Source: Deltaproteobacteria bacterium (lineage in GTDB: Bacteria > Desulfobacterota > Desulfobacteria > Desulfobacterales > Desulfosarcinaceae). Taken from it: 45,309 nucleotides of DNA. Under the pieces are notes generated by a model. That model saw only the letters and a program-made list of their open reading frames with translations. It had not been told where the DNA came from and made no database searches. The stretch spans positions 1 through 45,309 of the forward strand of contig JAHLLR010000039.1 of assembly GCA_020444075.1 (NCBI GenBank). The letters run 5' to 3'. Made by a program: the position numbers and the translations under genes. Positions 2,472-44,116 of the stretch are shown here, piece after piece (position 1 is the stretch's first letter; every line of letters starts with the position of its first letter).

Positions 2472-2571
2472 AGGATTCGAGGATTCAAGGGGCCGAGGGG
2501 TCCAGTGGCGGTACAGGTGATATGCATAGCCCTATCCCTTGAATCCTTGACACCTCGACCCCTTGAACCCT
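2472..2571. repeat. octad-period foldback array
   Basis: Two opposed arms of degenerate 8-bp units. Left arm, plus strand: AGGATTCG, AGGATTCA, AGGGGCCG, AGGGGTCC at 2472-2503. Right arm, plus strand: TGAATCCT, TGACACCT, CGACCCCT, TGAACCCT at 2540-2571, i.e. the same AGGRNTCA-type unit inverted. The right arm ends 2 bp from the stop codon of the FAD oxidoreductase gene. The RNA could fold into a long imperfect hairpin between two operon genes. See the finding on 7/8-bp arrays. Confidence 0.7.
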
Positions 2572-2573
2572 TT

Positions 2574-11401: not shown

Positions 11402-11488
11402 GACTGCAAAGATTCCGTCAAGGTTGGCGTATCGGTTAACCGGATGATAGGAAGCATGCCATACTTTTAATGGCCAGGCAAACCGGTA

Positions 11489-11589
11489 GGCTGAAGTCCG
11501 AGGCCAGAGTTCTGGAAGCCGCTTTTATTCCTGTTCCCCATCCTCCGTCCTCTGCCTTCCGTGCTCGGTCCTCGGCCTTCAGCCCTCAG
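11489..11589. repeat. heptad-period foldback array at rpiR 3' end
   Basis: Right arm, plus strand, 11541-11589: TCCTCCG, TCCTCTG, CCTTCCG, TGCTCGG, TCCTCGG, CCTTCAG, CCCTCAG. All seven units fit NNYTCNG. Left arm 11489-11516 carries the same unit inverted (GGCTGAA, GTCCGAG, GCCAGAG, TTCTGGA). On the minus strand the array begins at the RpiR gene stop codon: that TGA is the end of the first CNGA unit. Confidence 0.75.
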
Positions 11590-12464
11590 TCGTGGGCGTA
11601 CATGTTGAACAAAATATCGTTTTCCAGGTACATCTGCTCAAGCTTCTCCTGGTGCTCATTGAGCTGCGGGCGCTGACGATTGACCAGTTCCAGCACCAGG
11701 TAGTTGATGATACAGGAAATGGTCGTCGGATAACCGATCAGCGGGATGGAACGGGATGGAACCACCAGGGAGAGATGGGCAAAGGGGATTACCGGGCACA
11801 GGGTGTTATCGGTGATCACCAGCAGGTTGTGCTGAAGCCGCCGGGCGACCTTTCCCAGTTTGATCAGTTCGTTGGGATAGCGGGATGTGGTGATAATCGT
11901 CACCAGGCTGCTGTCGGGCGCATTGGTCAGCCAGTCGATGGCGGTACTGTCACTGCCTTTTAAGATATGGACACCCCGGCGGACTTTGGTCAACGACCAC
12001 CCGAGGTAATAGGCAAAAGTGTAGGAGACTCTGGAGCCGACCACATAAACGGCGGTACTGTTCTCAAGCTGCTCCACGATCTTGCCCAGCACCTTCATGT
12101 CGATGCCCTCATAAAACTGACGCAGGTTGTTCATCTCCTCGAAGACCACCCGGTGAAGCAGGTCGGTGCCGGGCCCCTTCATTCCAGGCAGATCCACCCG
12201 GTCCGGCAGGGTCAGTCCTGAATCCACAAAATCCCGCAGCGCCTGAAGAAATTCTCCATAACCGCCGTAGCCCAATTGCCCCACGAACCGAACCACCGTG
12301 GCCTCGCTGACCCCGCAGGCTTCGGAAAGTTCTTTGGTGGTCATGAAAACCGCCTTGCGGGGGTTTTGAATAATATAGCTGCCCAGGATTTTTCCTTTGG
12401 GGGTAAGTGTGTCCAGTTGATTCACGATGCCCTTGATCACCGGATGTGCCTGGGAATCATTCAT
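11586..12464 (-). CDS. RpiR-family transcriptional regulator (HTH + SIS domain)
   Basis: 292 residues. The N-terminal 80 or so form the RpiR helix-turn-helix (TTKELSEACGVSEATVVRFVGQLGYGGYGEFLQALR), followed by a SIS domain at about 130-260 (AVYVVGSRVSYTFAYYLGWSL and LVTIITTSRYPNELI), which normally binds a phosphosugar or related effector. AAGGAA lies 7 nt before the ATG. It is divergent from soxB, and a perfect TGAAAT-N4-ATTTCA inverted repeat lies 27 bp upstream of its start, so it probably controls itself and the sox operon. The effector is unknown; RpiR proteins do occur next to amine catabolic genes. Confidence 0.92.
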   Translation of the reverse strand: MNDSQAHPVIKGIVNQLDTLTPKGKILGSYIIQNPRKAVFMTTKELSEACGVSEATVVRFVGQLGYGGYGEFLQALRDFVDSGLTLPDRVDLPGMKGPGTDLLHRVVFEEMNNLRQFYEGIDMKVLGKIVEQLENSTAVYVVGSRVSYTFAYYLGWSLTKVRRGVHILKGSDSTAIDWLTNAPDSSLVTIITTSRYPNELIKLGKVARRLQHNLLVITDNTLCPVIPFAHLSLVVPSRSIPLIGYPTTISCIINYLVLELVNRQRPQLNEHQEKLEQMYLENDILFNMYAHD

Positions 12465-17331: not shown

Positions 17332-17441
17332 GTGTTAGGTTGCACGTGTTAAGTGTTAAGCAAATGAATTCAATCGATTTTTAATATTAAATCGACCCCA
17401 TCCACCACTTAACACTTAAAACTTAACACTTAAAACTTCTA
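17332..17441. repeat. heptad-period foldback array between soxA and soxG
   Basis: Left arm 17332-17359: GTGTTAG, GTTGCAC, GTGTTAA, GTGTTAA. Right arm 17407-17441: ACTTAAC, ACTTAAA, ACTTAAC, ACTTAAA, ACTTCTA, the same unit inverted. Between them is a smaller TCGATTT/AAATCGA hairpin. This lies inside the sox operon in the 148-bp soxA-soxG gap. Confidence 0.75.
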
Positions 17442-24371: not shown

Positions 24372-24475
24372 GTTGGTTAATTGGTTGGACTAGCTGGATT
24401 GGTTATCTCAATCCGCCATGCCGGATTTTTCGCTTTTCCTATCAGCTAAACGCCATCAGCTATGAGCTATTTACT
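24372..24475. repeat. heptad/octad-period array at rnhB 3' end
   Basis: On the plus strand 24441-24475 is ATCAGCT, AAACGCC, ATCAGCT, ATGAGCT, ATTTACT. Read on the minus strand this is TAAATAG, CTCATAG, CTGATGG, CGTTTAG, CTGATAG: the rnhB stop TAG is inside the first of these units. A second arm of TTGGTTA-like units (24372-24405) lies on the yraN side. Confidence 0.65.
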
Positions 24476-25081
24476 ATACTCCCGAACCCCCTTGAAGGTC
24501 CGGCGGTGGATGGGGCAGCATCCGTGACGCATGATGGCCGCCCGGTGAGTTTGGGTGGGATACCCTTTATGGCGGCAGAATCCGAATTCGGGGAAAAGGG
24601 AATCTACCTGGGTCATGATCCGATCCCGGGTGACCTTGGCCACGATGGAGGCCGCGGCAATGGAGATGCTCAGTGAATCCCCCTTTTTGATGGCCTGCTG
24701 GGGCAGATCCGAAGCGATGGTGAAAATGCCGTCGATGAGCAGATGGTCCGGGCGGGGCTGAAGGTTGGCCACCGCCATGGCCATGGAATGCAGGGAGGCC
24801 TGCAGGATATTGACGCGATCGATCTCGGACGCGTCCACCACACCGATCCCGATGGCAATGGCAACGGTATACAGCCGGTCGTAAAGGCGGCTGCGCATGG
24901 CCGGTGTCAGCTTTTTGGAATCGTCGATCCCGGGAAGGTCAGCACCGTCGGGCAGGATGACCGCGGCGGAAACGACGGGGCCGGCCAGGGGACCCCGGCC
25001 GGCCTCATCGATACCTGCAACGATCTGACGGCCCATGTCGCGGGCCTTTTCTTCAAATGCCCAGAGGTCTGATATCATGTG
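24467..25081 (-). CDS. rnhB: ribonuclease HII
   Basis: 204 residues from MISDLWAFEEK; the frame is open a further 96 codons upstream, but that part runs antisense-like through rplS. Catalytic acids are visible: GIDEAGRGPLAGP (DE), IDDSKKLTP, HLLIDGIF and the GDSLSISIAAASIVAKVTRD block. Removes ribonucleotides from DNA-RNA hybrids. The last codons and stop lie in a heptad array. Sits 73 bp after rplS. Confidence 0.95.
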   Translation of the reverse strand, partial: HMISDLWAFEEKARDMGRQIVAGIDEAGRGPLAGPVVSAAVILPDGADLPGIDDSKKLTPAMRSRLYDRLYTVAIAIGIGVVDASEIDRVNILQASLHSMAMAVANLQPRPDHLLIDGIFTIASDLPQQAIKKGDSLSISIAAASIVAKVTRDRIMTQVDSLFPEFGFCRHKGYPTQTHRAAIMRHGCCPIHRRTFKGVREYSK

Positions 25082-29475: not shown

Positions 29476-30543
29476 ATGGCCCCAGAATCAAGCAAAATCG
29501 ACATCAAAGACCTGTCCCGGCAGCAGTTGTCCGACTGGCTGAAGGGCCAGGGCAGACGTCCCTTTCGCGCCGACCAGATTTTAAGGTGGGTGTACCTGCG
29601 CCAGGTCGACCGGTTTGACGACATGACCAACCTGGGAAAACCGCTGCGGGCGGACCTGGAAACGGCCTTCGTCAACCCCCGCCTGCAGGTGGAAAGCGAG
29701 GCCGTCTCCCGGGACGGATCCCGCAAGCTGCTGTTCAGGCTTCATGACGGCCTTCACATCGAAACGGTCATCATCCCCGAAAAGGAGCATTTCACCCTGT
29801 GCGTCTCCAGCCAGGTGGGATGCAGCCAGGGATGCAGCTTCTGCATGACGGCCAAAGGGGGCTTTGCGCGCAACCTGTCTGCCGGGGAGATCATTTCGCA
29901 GGTACGCGATGTCCAGCATCAGGTGAGTATGCAAGGCGGCATGCCCCTGACCAATATCGTCTTCATGGGCATGGGAGAACCGCTGGCCAATTATAAAAAT
30001 GTGGTCCAGGCCCTGGATGTGATCACCGACGGCGATTTCGGCCTCAAGATCTCCACACGGCGGGTCACCGTATCCACTGCGGGACTGGTCCCTAAAATGG
30101 CCGACCTGGGGCGTGACACGCAGGTAAATCTGGCCGTATCCCTCAACGCCACCGACGACGACACCCGCAGCCGGCTGATGCCCATCAACCGCAAGTACCC
30201 CATCGCCGACCTGATCGGGGCCTGCCGATGCTATCCCTTGCCGCCCCGCCGAAAGATCACCTTCGAATACATCCTGATGAAAGGCGTCAACGACAGCATA
30301 GCCGACGCCGAACGGCTGGTGAAACTGCTGCGTCCCATCAAAGCCAAGATCAACCTGATCCCTTTCAACGAACACCCGGGAAGCGATTTCAAACGCCCGG
30401 ATGCATCCCGGATCAGCCAGTTCCAGGAATTGCTGGCCGACCATCATTACACGGTGATCGTCCGCCACAGCAAGGGGCAGGACATTGGCGCCGCCTGCGG
30501 GCAACTGAGTGCCGAGGTCCGAGGACTGAAAACGCAAGACTGA
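29476..30543 (+). CDS. rlmN: dual-specificity 23S rRNA/tRNA (adenine-C2)-methyltransferase
   Basis: 355 residues from ATG 29476; earlier in-frame ATGs lead low-complexity sequence. Radical-SAM cysteines C116, C120 and C123 (CSQGCSFC), the resting cysteine C109 in LCVSSQVGC and the methyl-carrying cysteine in DIGAACGQLS near the C-terminus are all present. Methylates A2503 of 23S rRNA and A37 of some tRNAs. The last nine codons and the TGA stop are built from a heptad array (see findings). Confidence 0.96.
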   Translation: MAPESSKIDIKDLSRQQLSDWLKGQGRRPFRADQILRWVYLRQVDRFDDMTNLGKPLRADLETAFVNPRLQVESEAVSRDGSRKLLFRLHDGLHIETVIIPEKEHFTLCVSSQVGCSQGCSFCMTAKGGFARNLSAGEIISQVRDVQHQVSMQGGMPLTNIVFMGMGEPLANYKNVVQALDVITDGDFGLKISTRRVTVSTAGLVPKMADLGRDTQVNLAVSLNATDDDTRSRLMPINRKYPIADLIGACRCYPLPPRRKITFEYILMKGVNDSIADAERLVKLLRPIKAKINLIPFNEHPGSDFKRPDASRISQFQELLADHHYTVIVRHSKGQDIGAACGQLSAEVRGLKTQD

Positions 30544-30624
30544 TCTCCGGGGGCTGAGGACCGCATTCGGTTTTCGAAATTTCTGCATTCCCCGACCTCG
30601 GACAGTTGTCCGCTATCCTCGGTC
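30515..30624. repeat. heptad-period foldback array in a convergent gap
   Basis: Left arm 30515-30570: AGGTCCG, AGGACTG, AAAACGC, AAGACTG, ATCTCCG, GGGGCTG, AGGACCG, CATTCGG. C at position 5 holds in 8/8 units and G at position 7 in 7/8. The first four units lie within the rlmN 3' end and include its TGA stop. Right arm 30590-30624: CCCCGAC, CTCGGAC, AGTTGTC, CGCTATC, CTCGGTC, inverted relative to the left and ending 6 bp from the stop of the convergent PP-loop gene. Confidence 0.75.
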
Positions 30625-30629
30625 TTTAC

Positions 30630-31625
30630 CTATATCATATACCGTTTAGTCTCTGCCGGTGGAATCCCCAAGACCATCACCTGGCGGCGATTCAGACCCA
30701 TCTGCACGTTCACCGCCACCGGGGTGTGGTTCGGCGCCTTGCTGTAGCCGGCACAGATGCCGGCGGCCAGCATCACCATCGGCTCACTGCCGCCGCCGGG
30801 AATCACCACCACCGGGCCGGGAAAATCATCCACCTTCAACACCATGTCCGTTTCCGGAACGATGCAGTGATTGATCTGTTCGTTATCCTGGCGGGTGCGG
30901 CCCACAACGATCTTGGTCTTTGGATCCAGGCGCATGTGACGGCCGAATTTGAGCAGGTCGAGGTCTTTTTCCGGACAGTCGGCCTGGTGGTCCAAAAGAT
31001 CCTTGAGCCGGCGGCTGAAAATCTTGTCGGTCAGCAGACACCCGCCGGCCGGCGCCGGAAAATCGGTCACCCCGAATTTTTCGGCCAGCTGCAACTGCGG
31101 TTTCCGGGACCGGCCGGAAATATCCAGCAACCGTTCCCGGTCCACAAGCCCTTCTTTTTCCGGGAGGGTCTCCGGCAGATGTTTTGCGGAAAGGGGCCTT
31201 ACGATGGCCCCATCGTATCCGGAGTGCTTTTCCACATAACGCAGAGAGGTGCGGGTCTGGCTCATGGGGCGCTGCCCCAGCACCTCTCCGGAAAAGAGGA
31301 AATCGAAACCCTGCTCGGTCATGATCCCGCCGGCCAGGCGAAACATCAGCGTATGGCAGTCCATGCACGGATTCATGTTCTTGCCGTATTTCACCGACGG
31401 CGACCGCATCATCTCCATGTATACCGGGGTAATCTTGCGCACCATGAGCGGAATGCCGGTTTTTTCAGAGGCCTTTTTTGCCTTTACCGATGAAAAGAAG
31501 GGAGTCTCAAAGGATACCCAGTGCACATCAATCCCCTGTTCCCGCAAAACCAGCGCACTTAAAATACTGTCCAGCCCCCCGGAGCAGAGCCCCAGGGCAC
31601 GTACAACCTTGTTTTCTGAAGACAT
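30630..31625 (-). CDS. PP-loop ATPase, tRNA-thiolation-like
   Basis: 331 residues. N-terminal PP-loop ATP-pyrophosphatase motif SGGLDS at 15-20, a conserved CMDCH pair, and a second cysteine region GGCLLTDK. The domain layout is that of ThiI/MnmA-related sulfur-transfer enzymes; the C-terminal part (KTKIVVGRTRQDNEQI) resembles a domain found with RNA-binding NFACT proteins. A role in tRNA thiolation is likely but the target base is unknown. Convergent with rlmN. Confidence 0.75.
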   Translation of the reverse strand: MSSENKVVRALGLCSGGLDSILSALVLREQGIDVHWVSFETPFFSSVKAKKASEKTGIPLMVRKITPVYMEMMRSPSVKYGKNMNPCMDCHTLMFRLAGGIMTEQGFDFLFSGEVLGQRPMSQTRTSLRYVEKHSGYDGAIVRPLSAKHLPETLPEKEGLVDRERLLDISGRSRKPQLQLAEKFGVTDFPAPAGGCLLTDKIFSRRLKDLLDHQADCPEKDLDLLKFGRHMRLDPKTKIVVGRTRQDNEQINHCIVPETDMVLKVDDFPGPVVVIPGGGSEPMVMLAAGICAGYSKAPNHTPVAVNVQMGLNRRQVMVLGIPPAETKRYMI

Positions 31626-35969: not shown

Positions 35970-36037
35970 GACGGAGGTCAACGATCCGAGTTCAGAGGAC
36001 CGAAGGCTGACTTCCGGCATCTGCCATCAGACGGCTG
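35968..36037. repeat. ten-unit heptad array between convergent genes
   Basis: Starting in the stop codon of the Mo-hydroxylase large subunit: AGGACGG, AGGTCAA, CGATCCG, AGTTCAG, AGGACCG, AAGGCTG, ACTTCCG, GCATCTG, CCATCAG, ACGGCTG. Position 5 is C in 10/10 units and position 7 is G in 9/10. It fills almost the whole gap up to the stop of the convergent GAF gene at 36041. Confidence 0.8.
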
Positions 36038-42263: not shown

Positions 42264-43172
42264 CTAACTAACTTGATCGATCAATCGAAGCTGATGTTGC
42301 TTGACTATTTTTTCGCCTCTTCGAACCGCATATCCGACTCCCGATACGGTCATCTCCAGTTCCCGGGCAAGGTCGGTCTGGAGAAGCCCCAACTCGGCGC
42401 AGCACCAGTAACAGAATAGCCCCCTGGCAGCTGAACGCAATTTCTGGCGCCCCTTTTGGAATATGTCATCCTTCTCGATTGAATAAATCCTGGCGACCGT
42501 GTCAGCAACGCGAGACATATCATAGCCAAGGCGTTTGAGTTCATAACCTCGCTCAAACTGCTCATCGGCTTGAGAAAGAACAGACATCACGAAGTCCGAA
42601 TCACCTAAAATGCGCTCATCGCCTTTGATCCGGTCCATCCCCTTCAGGCGCAGCTTCTTCACCTCCGACCATCCACCGAGACTGCGGATCAATCCACCGC
42701 CAACCAGTTCAGGGCACCGGCCCATATCAATCCCCGCTTTGACATAGGCAAGGTATTGTTTGCGGGCGGTTGTTTCATTTTGGGCAAAGCAACCCAAAAC
42801 ATACGCGTCATCCTGCCAGTCGCATGCACCTTTTTCTACAAGCGACCGGTGGCCACAAAACGAATAGTCGTTCAAGGCCTTGAGGTCTTCAACCAACCCG
42901 GCCCGCAGGGGATTCAGGTGAATATAACGCACCAGTTCCTTGAGATAGGCATCTTCCTGGCAAATTATCGATTTATACCGGTTCTGAAACAGCTGCCCAT
43001 GGCGTTTATGGCGGCGGTTGAAGCTGACGGCGTGGCCGGTCAGCAGTCGCTGCATCAAACCGGCCAGCCCGTCAGGTCCTGAGCGAAACAGAAAATGCGC
43101 ATGGTTGGTCATTAATACCCAGGCATAACAACTGGTCCGGGTTTCAGGGATCAAGGTTGACAAACGGTCCAC
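42264..43172 (-). pseudogene. 5'-truncated REP-associated-type (Y1/HUH) transposase
   Basis: 302 residues in an open frame. The HUH motif TNHAHFLFR, RHGQLFQNRYKSI and YLKELVRYIHLNPLRAGLV, followed by a C-terminal DNA-binding region (LVGGGLIRSLGGWSEVKKLR), match the IS200/REP-associated transposase family common in this group. The N-terminal 50 or so residues that normally begin such proteins are missing: upstream the frame runs straight into YD-repeat sequence (junction about 43185-43195). A GTG at 43172 is only a nominal start. Probably inactive. Confidence 0.8.
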
Positions 43173-44116
43173 GAAACCTTCCTGATCGGTTTGAACTTGG
43201 TCACGGCCCCGCCGGTACTCTTCTCGATCATGTTGCCGTTGAGGTCGTAGTCGTAGGTAACATCATCGTAACCGCCCAGCTCGTTGTCCTCGTTGTAGGC
43301 CCACTCGCTGAATGTATCGTTTGATGTCAGCCGGTTACCCACATCGTCGTAGGTAAAGGCCTCGTCGGCCTGAACCGGGTTGTCCACATCGGTCAAGCGG
43401 TACCGGTCGTCATAGGCGTAACCGTAATCCCCATGCTCGGTGGCCTTGGCGGTGATGTTGTCCATCCTGTCATACTCAAAGGCGTAGTTCAAGACCGGGT
43501 TGGACGCCGGGTCCTTGGCAGTGATCTGCTTGACCCGCATGAGCGGATCGTAGTCGAATTCTTTAGTTCCGCCGCCGGGCAGCAACATGGATGCCGGACG
43601 GTTCCACTTATACTCGCCGATGGTCAGCATGCCCGCATTGGGAATCTGCACGGCAGCAAGCTGGTTGTTGGCGTCGTACAGGTAGCCGTAAGCAATGCCG
43701 TCCGGACCGGTGTAGGTCTTTTTCAGTCCGTTATCGTAATAGGTGTACCCGCTGCTCAGGCTGAAAGCACCGTAGTTCACGGTCTCGCCAGTCTTGCGGT
43801 ACAAGGTGTCGTAAGTGTAGACCGCGGATGTAGTGCCGTCGTCGTAGCCGGTGAGGTTGCCCAGCTTGTCGTAGGTGAAAACAACGGTTTTGACAGGATT
43901 GACATGATCGACAGGATTGAAATAGCGGATTTCGGCCAGGCGGCCGGCATCATCATAGATGTATGCGGTCCGCTGGTTCTTGGCGTCGATCTTCTCCACC
44001 AGGTTGCCGGCGTCATCGTAGGCGTACCGGGTTTGGGAGCCGCGCGGCCGAGTCTCTTTGACCAGGCGGTTATTGGCGTCGTATTCGAACCCTCGTCCGA
44101 AATTCGGTTTGTAATT
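43151..44116 (-). pseudogene. YD-repeat (Rhs-like) protein remnant
   Basis: A frame open from a stop at 44117-44119 to 43151 (about 321 residues) made of tandem YD repeats: RYAYDDAGNLVEKIDA, YIYDDAGRLAEIRYF, FTYDKLGNLTGYDDGT, FEYDRMDNITAKA, FTYDDVGNRLTS and YDYDLNGNMIEKSTGG. There is no start codon or ribosome-binding site at its 5' end, and after ..GAVTKF it leaves the repeat pattern where transposase sequence begins. Both ends are therefore lost: an internal slice of a large Rhs or wall-associated protein. Confidence 0.8.

Follow-up and report, generated by a model that had tools for sequence, protein, structure and literature searches.

Three described classes of short bacterial repeats come closest to the arrays considered here. 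In Xanthomonas, intergenic arrays are built from the heptamer GGGAATC (GGGGAYT in Nostoc), and the passages of Rehm et al. (2015, PMC4692102) drawn on here report that such arrays form close inverted pairs (70 in one genome, 75 in another), that many of the downstream copies lie less than 50 bp from, or overlap, stop codons, and that the arrays are under-represented between divergent ORFs. In the Beggiatoaceae, repeats of TAACTGA bring stops into all frames when read forward and overlap the ends of ORFs; the sections of MacGregor (2015, PMC4679880) that we cite describe a single exact unit, found mostly just upstream of start codons and with one inverted set in the main genome, and note that, for two Bacteroidetes, the gaps are shorter in relatives without arrays. 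Lastly, GTAG-tagged REP palindromes and REPINs are described, in the part of Di Nocera et al. (2013, PMC3733652) used here, as short repeats that lie largely downstream of genes and sometimes form inverted dimers.

We have analysed a stretch of 45,309 nucleotides, referred to throughout as the window, from a member of the Desulfosarcinaceae, an anaerobic lineage (contig JAHLLR010000039.1), and compared its gene ends with those of relatives; the genomes compared carry the handles G000 to G012. The repeats that we describe form a class of tandem degenerate heptamers, with some octamers, whose units belong to a limited number of recurrent families and which often appears as an array with an inverted partner. 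These arrays apparently act as spreading repeat DNA and not as a purpose-built stop signal. The features in the window are collected in the table below.

Genes and repeat elements in the window (positions from its first nucleotide; C-terminal sequences, here and in the text, are given up to the stop codon)
Feature	Position	Strand	Remarks
Paired inverted octamer arrays	2472..2572		TCAAGGGG / CCCTTGAA
Inverted arm of rpiR array	11488..11515	+	profile scan
Heptad array adjoining rpiR stop	11538..11589	-	profile, lag-7, orthologues
rpiR-family regulator gene	11586..12464	-	HTH_6 + SIS (domain matches)
Paired inverted heptad arrays	17345..17438		GTTAAGT / ACTTAAC
Heptad array across rnhB end	24452..24477	-	AGCTGAT type; GVREYSK vs GVREYL in several array-free congeners
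rnhB, ribonuclease HII	24467..25081	-	start codon picked by us at MISDLW
rlmN coding sequence	29476..30543	+	355 aa; best-scoring family model TIGR00048, residues 5-347
Degenerate heptad array across rlmN end	30512..30563	+	GARGNCN family; encodes RlmN C-terminus (last 10 residues, approx.) and TGA stop
Weak inverted array	30593..30620	-	GARGNCN family, as rlmN array; at end of convergent gene; 9.4 bits
Convergent gene	30630..31625	-	ThiI-like N-terminal part + NFACT-R_2 domain; 86 nt from rlmN stop
Further heptad element	35983..36036		after ORF ending 35969; + arm 35983, - arm 36009

Arrays at the ends of rlmN, rnhB and rpiR

An earlier note on this DNA held that a run of heptads enters rlmN and supplies its C-terminus and stop codon, and the sequence confirms this: from 30515 the + strand runs AGGTCCG AGGACTG AAAACGC AAGACTG A..., and the heptad AGACTGA has the stop TGA (30541-30543) as its last three letters. 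The gene identities given there hold as well (RlmN by TIGR00048, an RpiR-type regulator by HTH_6/SIS, and ribonuclease HII). The array starts about one codon past the conserved RlmN core, and because TIGR00048 ends at residue 347 and coverage by the other RlmN/Cfr models reaches residue 350 at most, the tail that the array encodes, which begins at around residue 346, falls largely outside the family profiles. The part of the array after 30543 is weak and was delimited by eye (heptads 30544-30563, 6.6 bits at 30554).

The lag-7 self-similarity at the RlmN tail, whose best segment covers nt 4-33 past the AACGQL codons (about 30512-30540), was matched by 0.75% of 400 Markov resamples (p 0.0075); the resampling covered 31 gene ends, and single values near 0.01 are modest. 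The rlmN array is degenerate and absent from the output of Tandem Repeats Finder, which at score 40 reported no array at rlmN, rpiR or rnhB, and for this reason we derived a profile of the heptad, G A R G N C N, from five arrays outside the window (three from its own genome and two from congeners) and searched the whole window with it on both strands. The top three separate places are 11545(-) at 24.6 bits, 30516(+) at 24.4 and 35983(+) at 24.3; ranks 4 and 5, 11488(+) and 36009(-), are the inverted arms of the 11545(-) and 35983(+) elements. It might be argued that the rlmN array is no more than chance periodicity in a GC-rich coding end, as its units are degenerate, Tandem Repeats Finder does not report it and its lag-7 p is only 0.0075. 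That an independently trained profile places it second in the window, however, and that arrays occupy the same place in rlmN in four congeners, make this reading barely credible.

Across the genus, as represented by 12 of 13 genomes (G011, with fragments only, was left out), the conserved core of RlmN ends in AACGQL and is mostly followed by RAK and a variable tail; the window's own tail, SAEVRGLKTQD, is without the RAK found in most congeners. A significant lag-7 array covers the tail and stop in five of the 12 genomes (G000, G008, G005, G003 and G012), G006 has an array further downstream only, and no significant lag-7 array was detected at rlmN in the other six (G002, G009, G001, G010, G007 and G004). 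In G012 the array encodes RSEDRGQRTEDG. We note that the rlmN locus of this genome (L029) holds two copies of the C-terminal end, each with a heptad tail, and that its first residues lie in another frame; either the end has been duplicated, the gene has decayed or the assembly is wrong here, and the locus was counted once despite its second C-terminal copy. For six of the 12 genomes we were able to locate the gene convergent with rlmN. Its spacing from rlmN is -11 nt (an overlap) in array-free G010; where an array is present it is 86 nt (G000), 109 nt (G008) or 70 nt (G003), and it is 199 nt and 361 nt in G006 and G007, where the gap is wide without an array at the stop.

The end of rnhB is built in a similar way. 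Its stop TAG lies, as the earlier note had it, within an array unit, TAAATAG at 24467-24473 on the - strand (one of three matches to this heptad in the window), and the best RnhB family model ends at residue 201 of 204. An array lies over the stop in four of 12 anchored orthologues (G000, G003, G005 and G007; p <0.0025 to 0.0125) and begins just past the stop in G012, and no lag-7 array was found at the end of rnhB in the remaining seven; a 13th orthologue, that of G010 (end GVREHIHNKC), had no match to the anchor and was left out. The array-free proteins of G002, G011 and G008 end in GVREYL or GVREHL, 8-12 nt short of the next gene, and that of G004 likewise ends in GVREYL. The array-borne ends are GVREYSK in the window, ...VELMSER in G003, ...VESDR in G005 and ...YER in G007, each with its stop inside a heptad array. 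The array-free proteins of G009, G006 and G001 have different, longer and unrelated tails. Tails of both RlmN and RnhB differ among array-free congeners as well, and because of this variation, which in RnhB amounts to longer, unrelated tails in three of seven, not every difference between tails is due to arrays.

The earlier note had also proposed that arrays may have replaced the original ends of all three genes. This part of the proposal is supported for rlmN and rnhB: in congeners without arrays the C-termini and stops are different ones, and in several congeners the ends of these genes are overlapped by arrays of other heptad families. Comparison of orthologous sequences therefore supports the view that arrays have overwritten the tails and stops of rlmN and rnhB. 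We also note that in G012 the gap from rnhB to the next gene (L212) contains successive blocks of the AGCTGAT, GAGGACT, GAACGTC and AACCAA-like families, and this mixture suggests repeated gains at one site.

At rpiR the proposal is not supported. The stop does lie within an array unit, CGACTGA at 11586-11592 on the - strand, which is the single occurrence of this heptad in the window. RpiR matches were found in nine of 13 genomes, and setting aside those of G005 and G003 (L202 and L203, 64% identical) and the paralogues, all of them without a usable C-terminus, left seven orthologues. Five of the seven have arrays, the position of the stop is identical in all five, and in G011 and G012 the detected array starts after the stop; because of this constancy and of these two cases, the rpiR stop is probably native. 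As a separate observation, the region downstream of the array-free rpiR of G001 (L201) carries two palindromes of the TAGGAGC type in inverted orientation, REPIN-like by eye, where congeners carry heptad arrays.

Placement, inverted partners and stop codons

In 436 kb of the window's own genome, segments with a score of at least 16 number 11 at lag 7, 3 at lag 8 and 6 at lag 14, each against 0 in one dinucleotide shuffle, and lags 10, 11 and 13 are without excess; the lag-7 density is biased upward, because the sampled contigs were picked for matches to a heptad pattern. A wider survey added to these 436 kb another 400 kb from G008, 200 kb from G003 and 200 kb from G001 and, at periods of 7, 8 or 9 and a score of at least 12, gave 90 arrays. 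We set aside 31 that lie well within predicted ORFs (28 of these are 9-mers, a period that keeps the reading frame), which left 59; the rlmN and rnhB arrays themselves, with lag-7 scores of 8 and 9, fall below the cut-off and are therefore outside this set. An array of the nonamer TTGACAGGA is also present in the window, at 43890-43920, within a - strand ORF (43151-43999) whose translation we take to resemble YD/RHS repeats.

The arrays are not evenly placed. Among 7- and 8-mers (the six remaining 9-mers were dropped, and the genes are those given by a simple longest-ORF rule) they are present in 18 of 128 gaps between convergent genes, in 20 of 357 between codirectional genes and in 2 of 124 between divergent genes, so that convergent gaps are favoured over the rest (p = 0.0004) and divergent gaps are short of arrays (p = 0.008). 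Within codirectional gaps the arrays lie no closer to the stop (11/20) than to the start (9/20, with starts by the longest-ORF rule). An inverted partner array within 180 nt that is better than all 40 nulls accompanies 22 of the 59 arrays, at 19 distinct loci and with 1.4 expected; a direct partner better than all nulls accompanies eight. The majority of arrays are degenerate, and we note that near-perfect CCTTCTA and CCTTCAC arrays, which lie between convergent genes at L168:3923-4015 and L141:13019-13079, look recently expanded. We also note heptad arrays at or near contig ends (G000:C159:1-32, G012:C1:113-284 and G012:C6:215-421); draft assemblies may therefore break on arrays, which would lead to their being undercounted.

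The frequency of inverted partners, the preference for convergent gaps and the scarcity in divergent ones would all be expected if the inverted arms served as bidirectional transcription terminators or mRNA-stabilising hairpins, with one long stem ending both convergent transcripts. Folding over both arms gave a z of -2.6 or lower for seven of ten elements (17345, -6.5; L181:7085, -6.5; L143:10228, -5.2; L143:11758, -4.0; L136:9452, -3.5; 2468, -2.9; L141:19510, -2.6), but these elements had been chosen for having inverted arms, so that their good folding is partly built in and the argument from it is partly circular. The two rpiR elements, moreover, fold with z values of only -1.9 and -0.3, and the rlmN element (30501-30632) with a z of -1.05, 30 of 200 shuffles being as good. 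Mismatches between arms do not look like wobble pairs (48 transitions against 76 transversions in 22 hand-picked elements), and a search of Rfam at the gathering threshold found no match in five sources. We regard this explanation as unlikely.

At rlmN itself the fold is ordinary, and we reject an RNA hairpin as the function there; nor was an intrinsic terminator found at rlmN, where there is no stable GC hairpin (z -1.05) and, by eye, no T-run behind the predicted stem. In 18 of the 22 hand-picked elements the best register of the arms is ahead of shifts by one to three units by at most 3 points, so the arms are not locked unit by unit; they pair via shared family sequence. Some of the strong-fold loci may have a hairpin role, which would be compatible with the spread of repeats.

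Four inverted pairs of different unit families (L143:10231-10355, L143:11761-11891, L151 and L150) have a spacer motif in common, GGAGCGRAGCGA, which has six exact matches in the window's own genome against none for the reversed pattern. Of the five copies, out of six, that were viewed in context, four lie between inverted arms and one (L149) is without an adjoining array. By eye the motif is absent from the rlmN gap.

We next consider the stops themselves. Since 7 and 8 are not multiples of 3, the earlier note had suggested that stop-bearing arrays could act as all-frame stop cassettes. Selection would then retain them at gene ends for closing every frame and halting run-on translation. In the window, each of the three frames does meet a stop no more than 50 nt from the conserved core of RlmN, and among 43 pairings of an array with a nearby 3' gene end, stops on the sense strand outnumber those on the antisense strand in 24, are fewer in 14 and match them in 5. 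This bias in orientation, however, has a p of 0.14, and counting stop triplets against shuffled units, as the note had proposed, reveals no enrichment: the richer strands of the 59 arrays contain 197, whereas column-permuted units average 198.5 (sd 13.4), and in 114 of the 200 permutations the count is at least as high as the observed one. Seven of the 59 arrays have no stop on either strand. There is thus no sign among the 59 arrays of selection for closing frames, and we consider the stop-cassette idea highly improbable; arrays close frames quickly as a side effect, because many of their units contain TGA or TAG, as MacGregor (2015) had likewise pointed out for the TAACTGA repeats.

Unit families and the origin of the arrays

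The 42 heptad arrays have consensus units that include the GARGNCN, GTGAACN, GAACGTC, CACTTAA and GCTGATN types, and 17 of 855 pairs of units from different loci reach a similarity of at least 0.75, whereas 30 column permutations gave 1.3 such pairs on average and 5 at most. Unit families occur in several genera of the phylum: among 198 genomes sampled across it, a triple array of GARGWCN is present in 29 and one of GAACRTY in 11, although the latter is absent from the window's own genome (39 match positions in the 198 genomes, against 5 for the reversed pattern). Match positions overlap, so that one long array is counted many times, and for this reason numbers of separate places are given below where we have them. 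For GTGAWCN the match positions number 143 in G003 (at least 35 separate places), 15 in G005, 6 in G008, 5 in the window's own genome (one place) and 2 in G011, and none in the other eight of 13 genomes, its reversed control being 0. GARGWCN has 243 in G012 (at least 11 places), 6 in the window's own genome and none in five of the 13. For the GARGNCN family the reversed control gave more matches than the pattern in the window's own genome (40 match positions as opposed to 6 in one scan, 46 as opposed to 18 in another), but it is uninformative here, because the reversed unit, GRAGNCW, itself resembles units that are present in arrays (CAGGAGCCAGAA).

These findings bear on whether each array arose where it stands. 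It has been proposed that slippage favours units of 7 nt (Mrazek 2007, as cited in the part of PMC4679880 used here), and local slippage alone, with every array derived from its own gene-end sequence and no spread between loci, would fit the rlmN arrays of G005 and G003, whose unit resembles the coding end itself (GATGGACGAGGGATGA). Against this, unit families recur at unrelated loci beyond what permutation yields, are present in several genera of the phylum, and in some cases are far more numerous in particular species, and we judge an exclusively local origin to be improbable.

The explanation that we favour, and consider somewhat more probable than all others together, is that the rlmN array is one copy of genus-wide repeat DNA that spreads between loci and is tolerated at dispensable tails. 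From the recurrence of families and the differences between species, we infer that spread between loci has taken place. The relatives compared are 5-31% apart in their RlmN, RnhB and RpiR proteins, and no copying between loci was observed; at such distances single copying events are not visible. Arrays would lengthen through slippage or unequal exchange, new places, in the gaps behind genes, may be seeded by copies from other arrays, and template switching between arms could keep the members of a pair alike. An array growing into the end of a gene would be tolerated only past the conserved domain, tail codons being lost, and the first unit to place a stop in frame would become the new gene end. 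Stops would then be a by-product of unit sequence, because it is the first in-frame stop-bearing unit that becomes the end of the gene.

It is also conceivable, though we think it rather unlikely, that the pairs constitute a self-spreading class in which a machinery copies the layout (array, spacer and inverted array) while the unit drifts into new families, so that each species has its own dialect and gene ends are rewritten during the spread.

Relation to described repeats

A variable C-terminus in genomes of this kind, as the arrays at rlmN and rnhB caution, may consist of repeat DNA and not of protein sequence under selection. The genus provides orthologous pairs with and without arrays at conserved gene ends, and heptad families that are uneven species by species; why arrays of 7 nt are common in bacteria, and whether through local origin or spread, is testable between close strains. 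We found no earlier description of these unit families among the matches listed from the open-licence PMC literature, and searches of the same literature for the unit strings returned, among the matches listed, a single paper, on yeast.

The arrays resemble the GGGAATC arrays of Xanthomonas in having a tandem unit of 7 nt (the lag-7 excess and the heptad profile), in forming close inverted pairs (22 of 59 arrays, if weakly at rlmN itself), in being scarce between divergent ORFs (2 of 124 gaps, p = 0.008) and, as far as the cited passages on Xanthomonas go, in lying near or overlapping stop codons. They differ in that none of the 42 consensus units is GGGAATC. Whereas Xanthomonas has, according to the same passages, one G-rich unit that forms quadruplexes, the arrays described here belong to many degenerate families, vary between species and between orthologous sites, and lie over the C-termini of orthologues. 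Like the TAACTGA repeats, as these are portrayed in the sections cited, they are heptad arrays that bring stops into frames; unlike them, they include no TAACTGA among the 42 consensus units, prefer convergent gaps and show no preference for starts in codirectional gaps (9/20, by longest-ORF starts). A REP or REPIN, as described in the part of the literature cited above, is a compact tagged palindrome, whereas the arrays here are tandem heptads. A candidate association with REPs was rejected, one of eight intergenic REP-like hairpins lying near an array as compared with 30 of 585 random gap positions. What is new here, relative to these systems, is a multi-family, degenerate and species-dependent set of units, together with the evidence from orthologues at C-termini.
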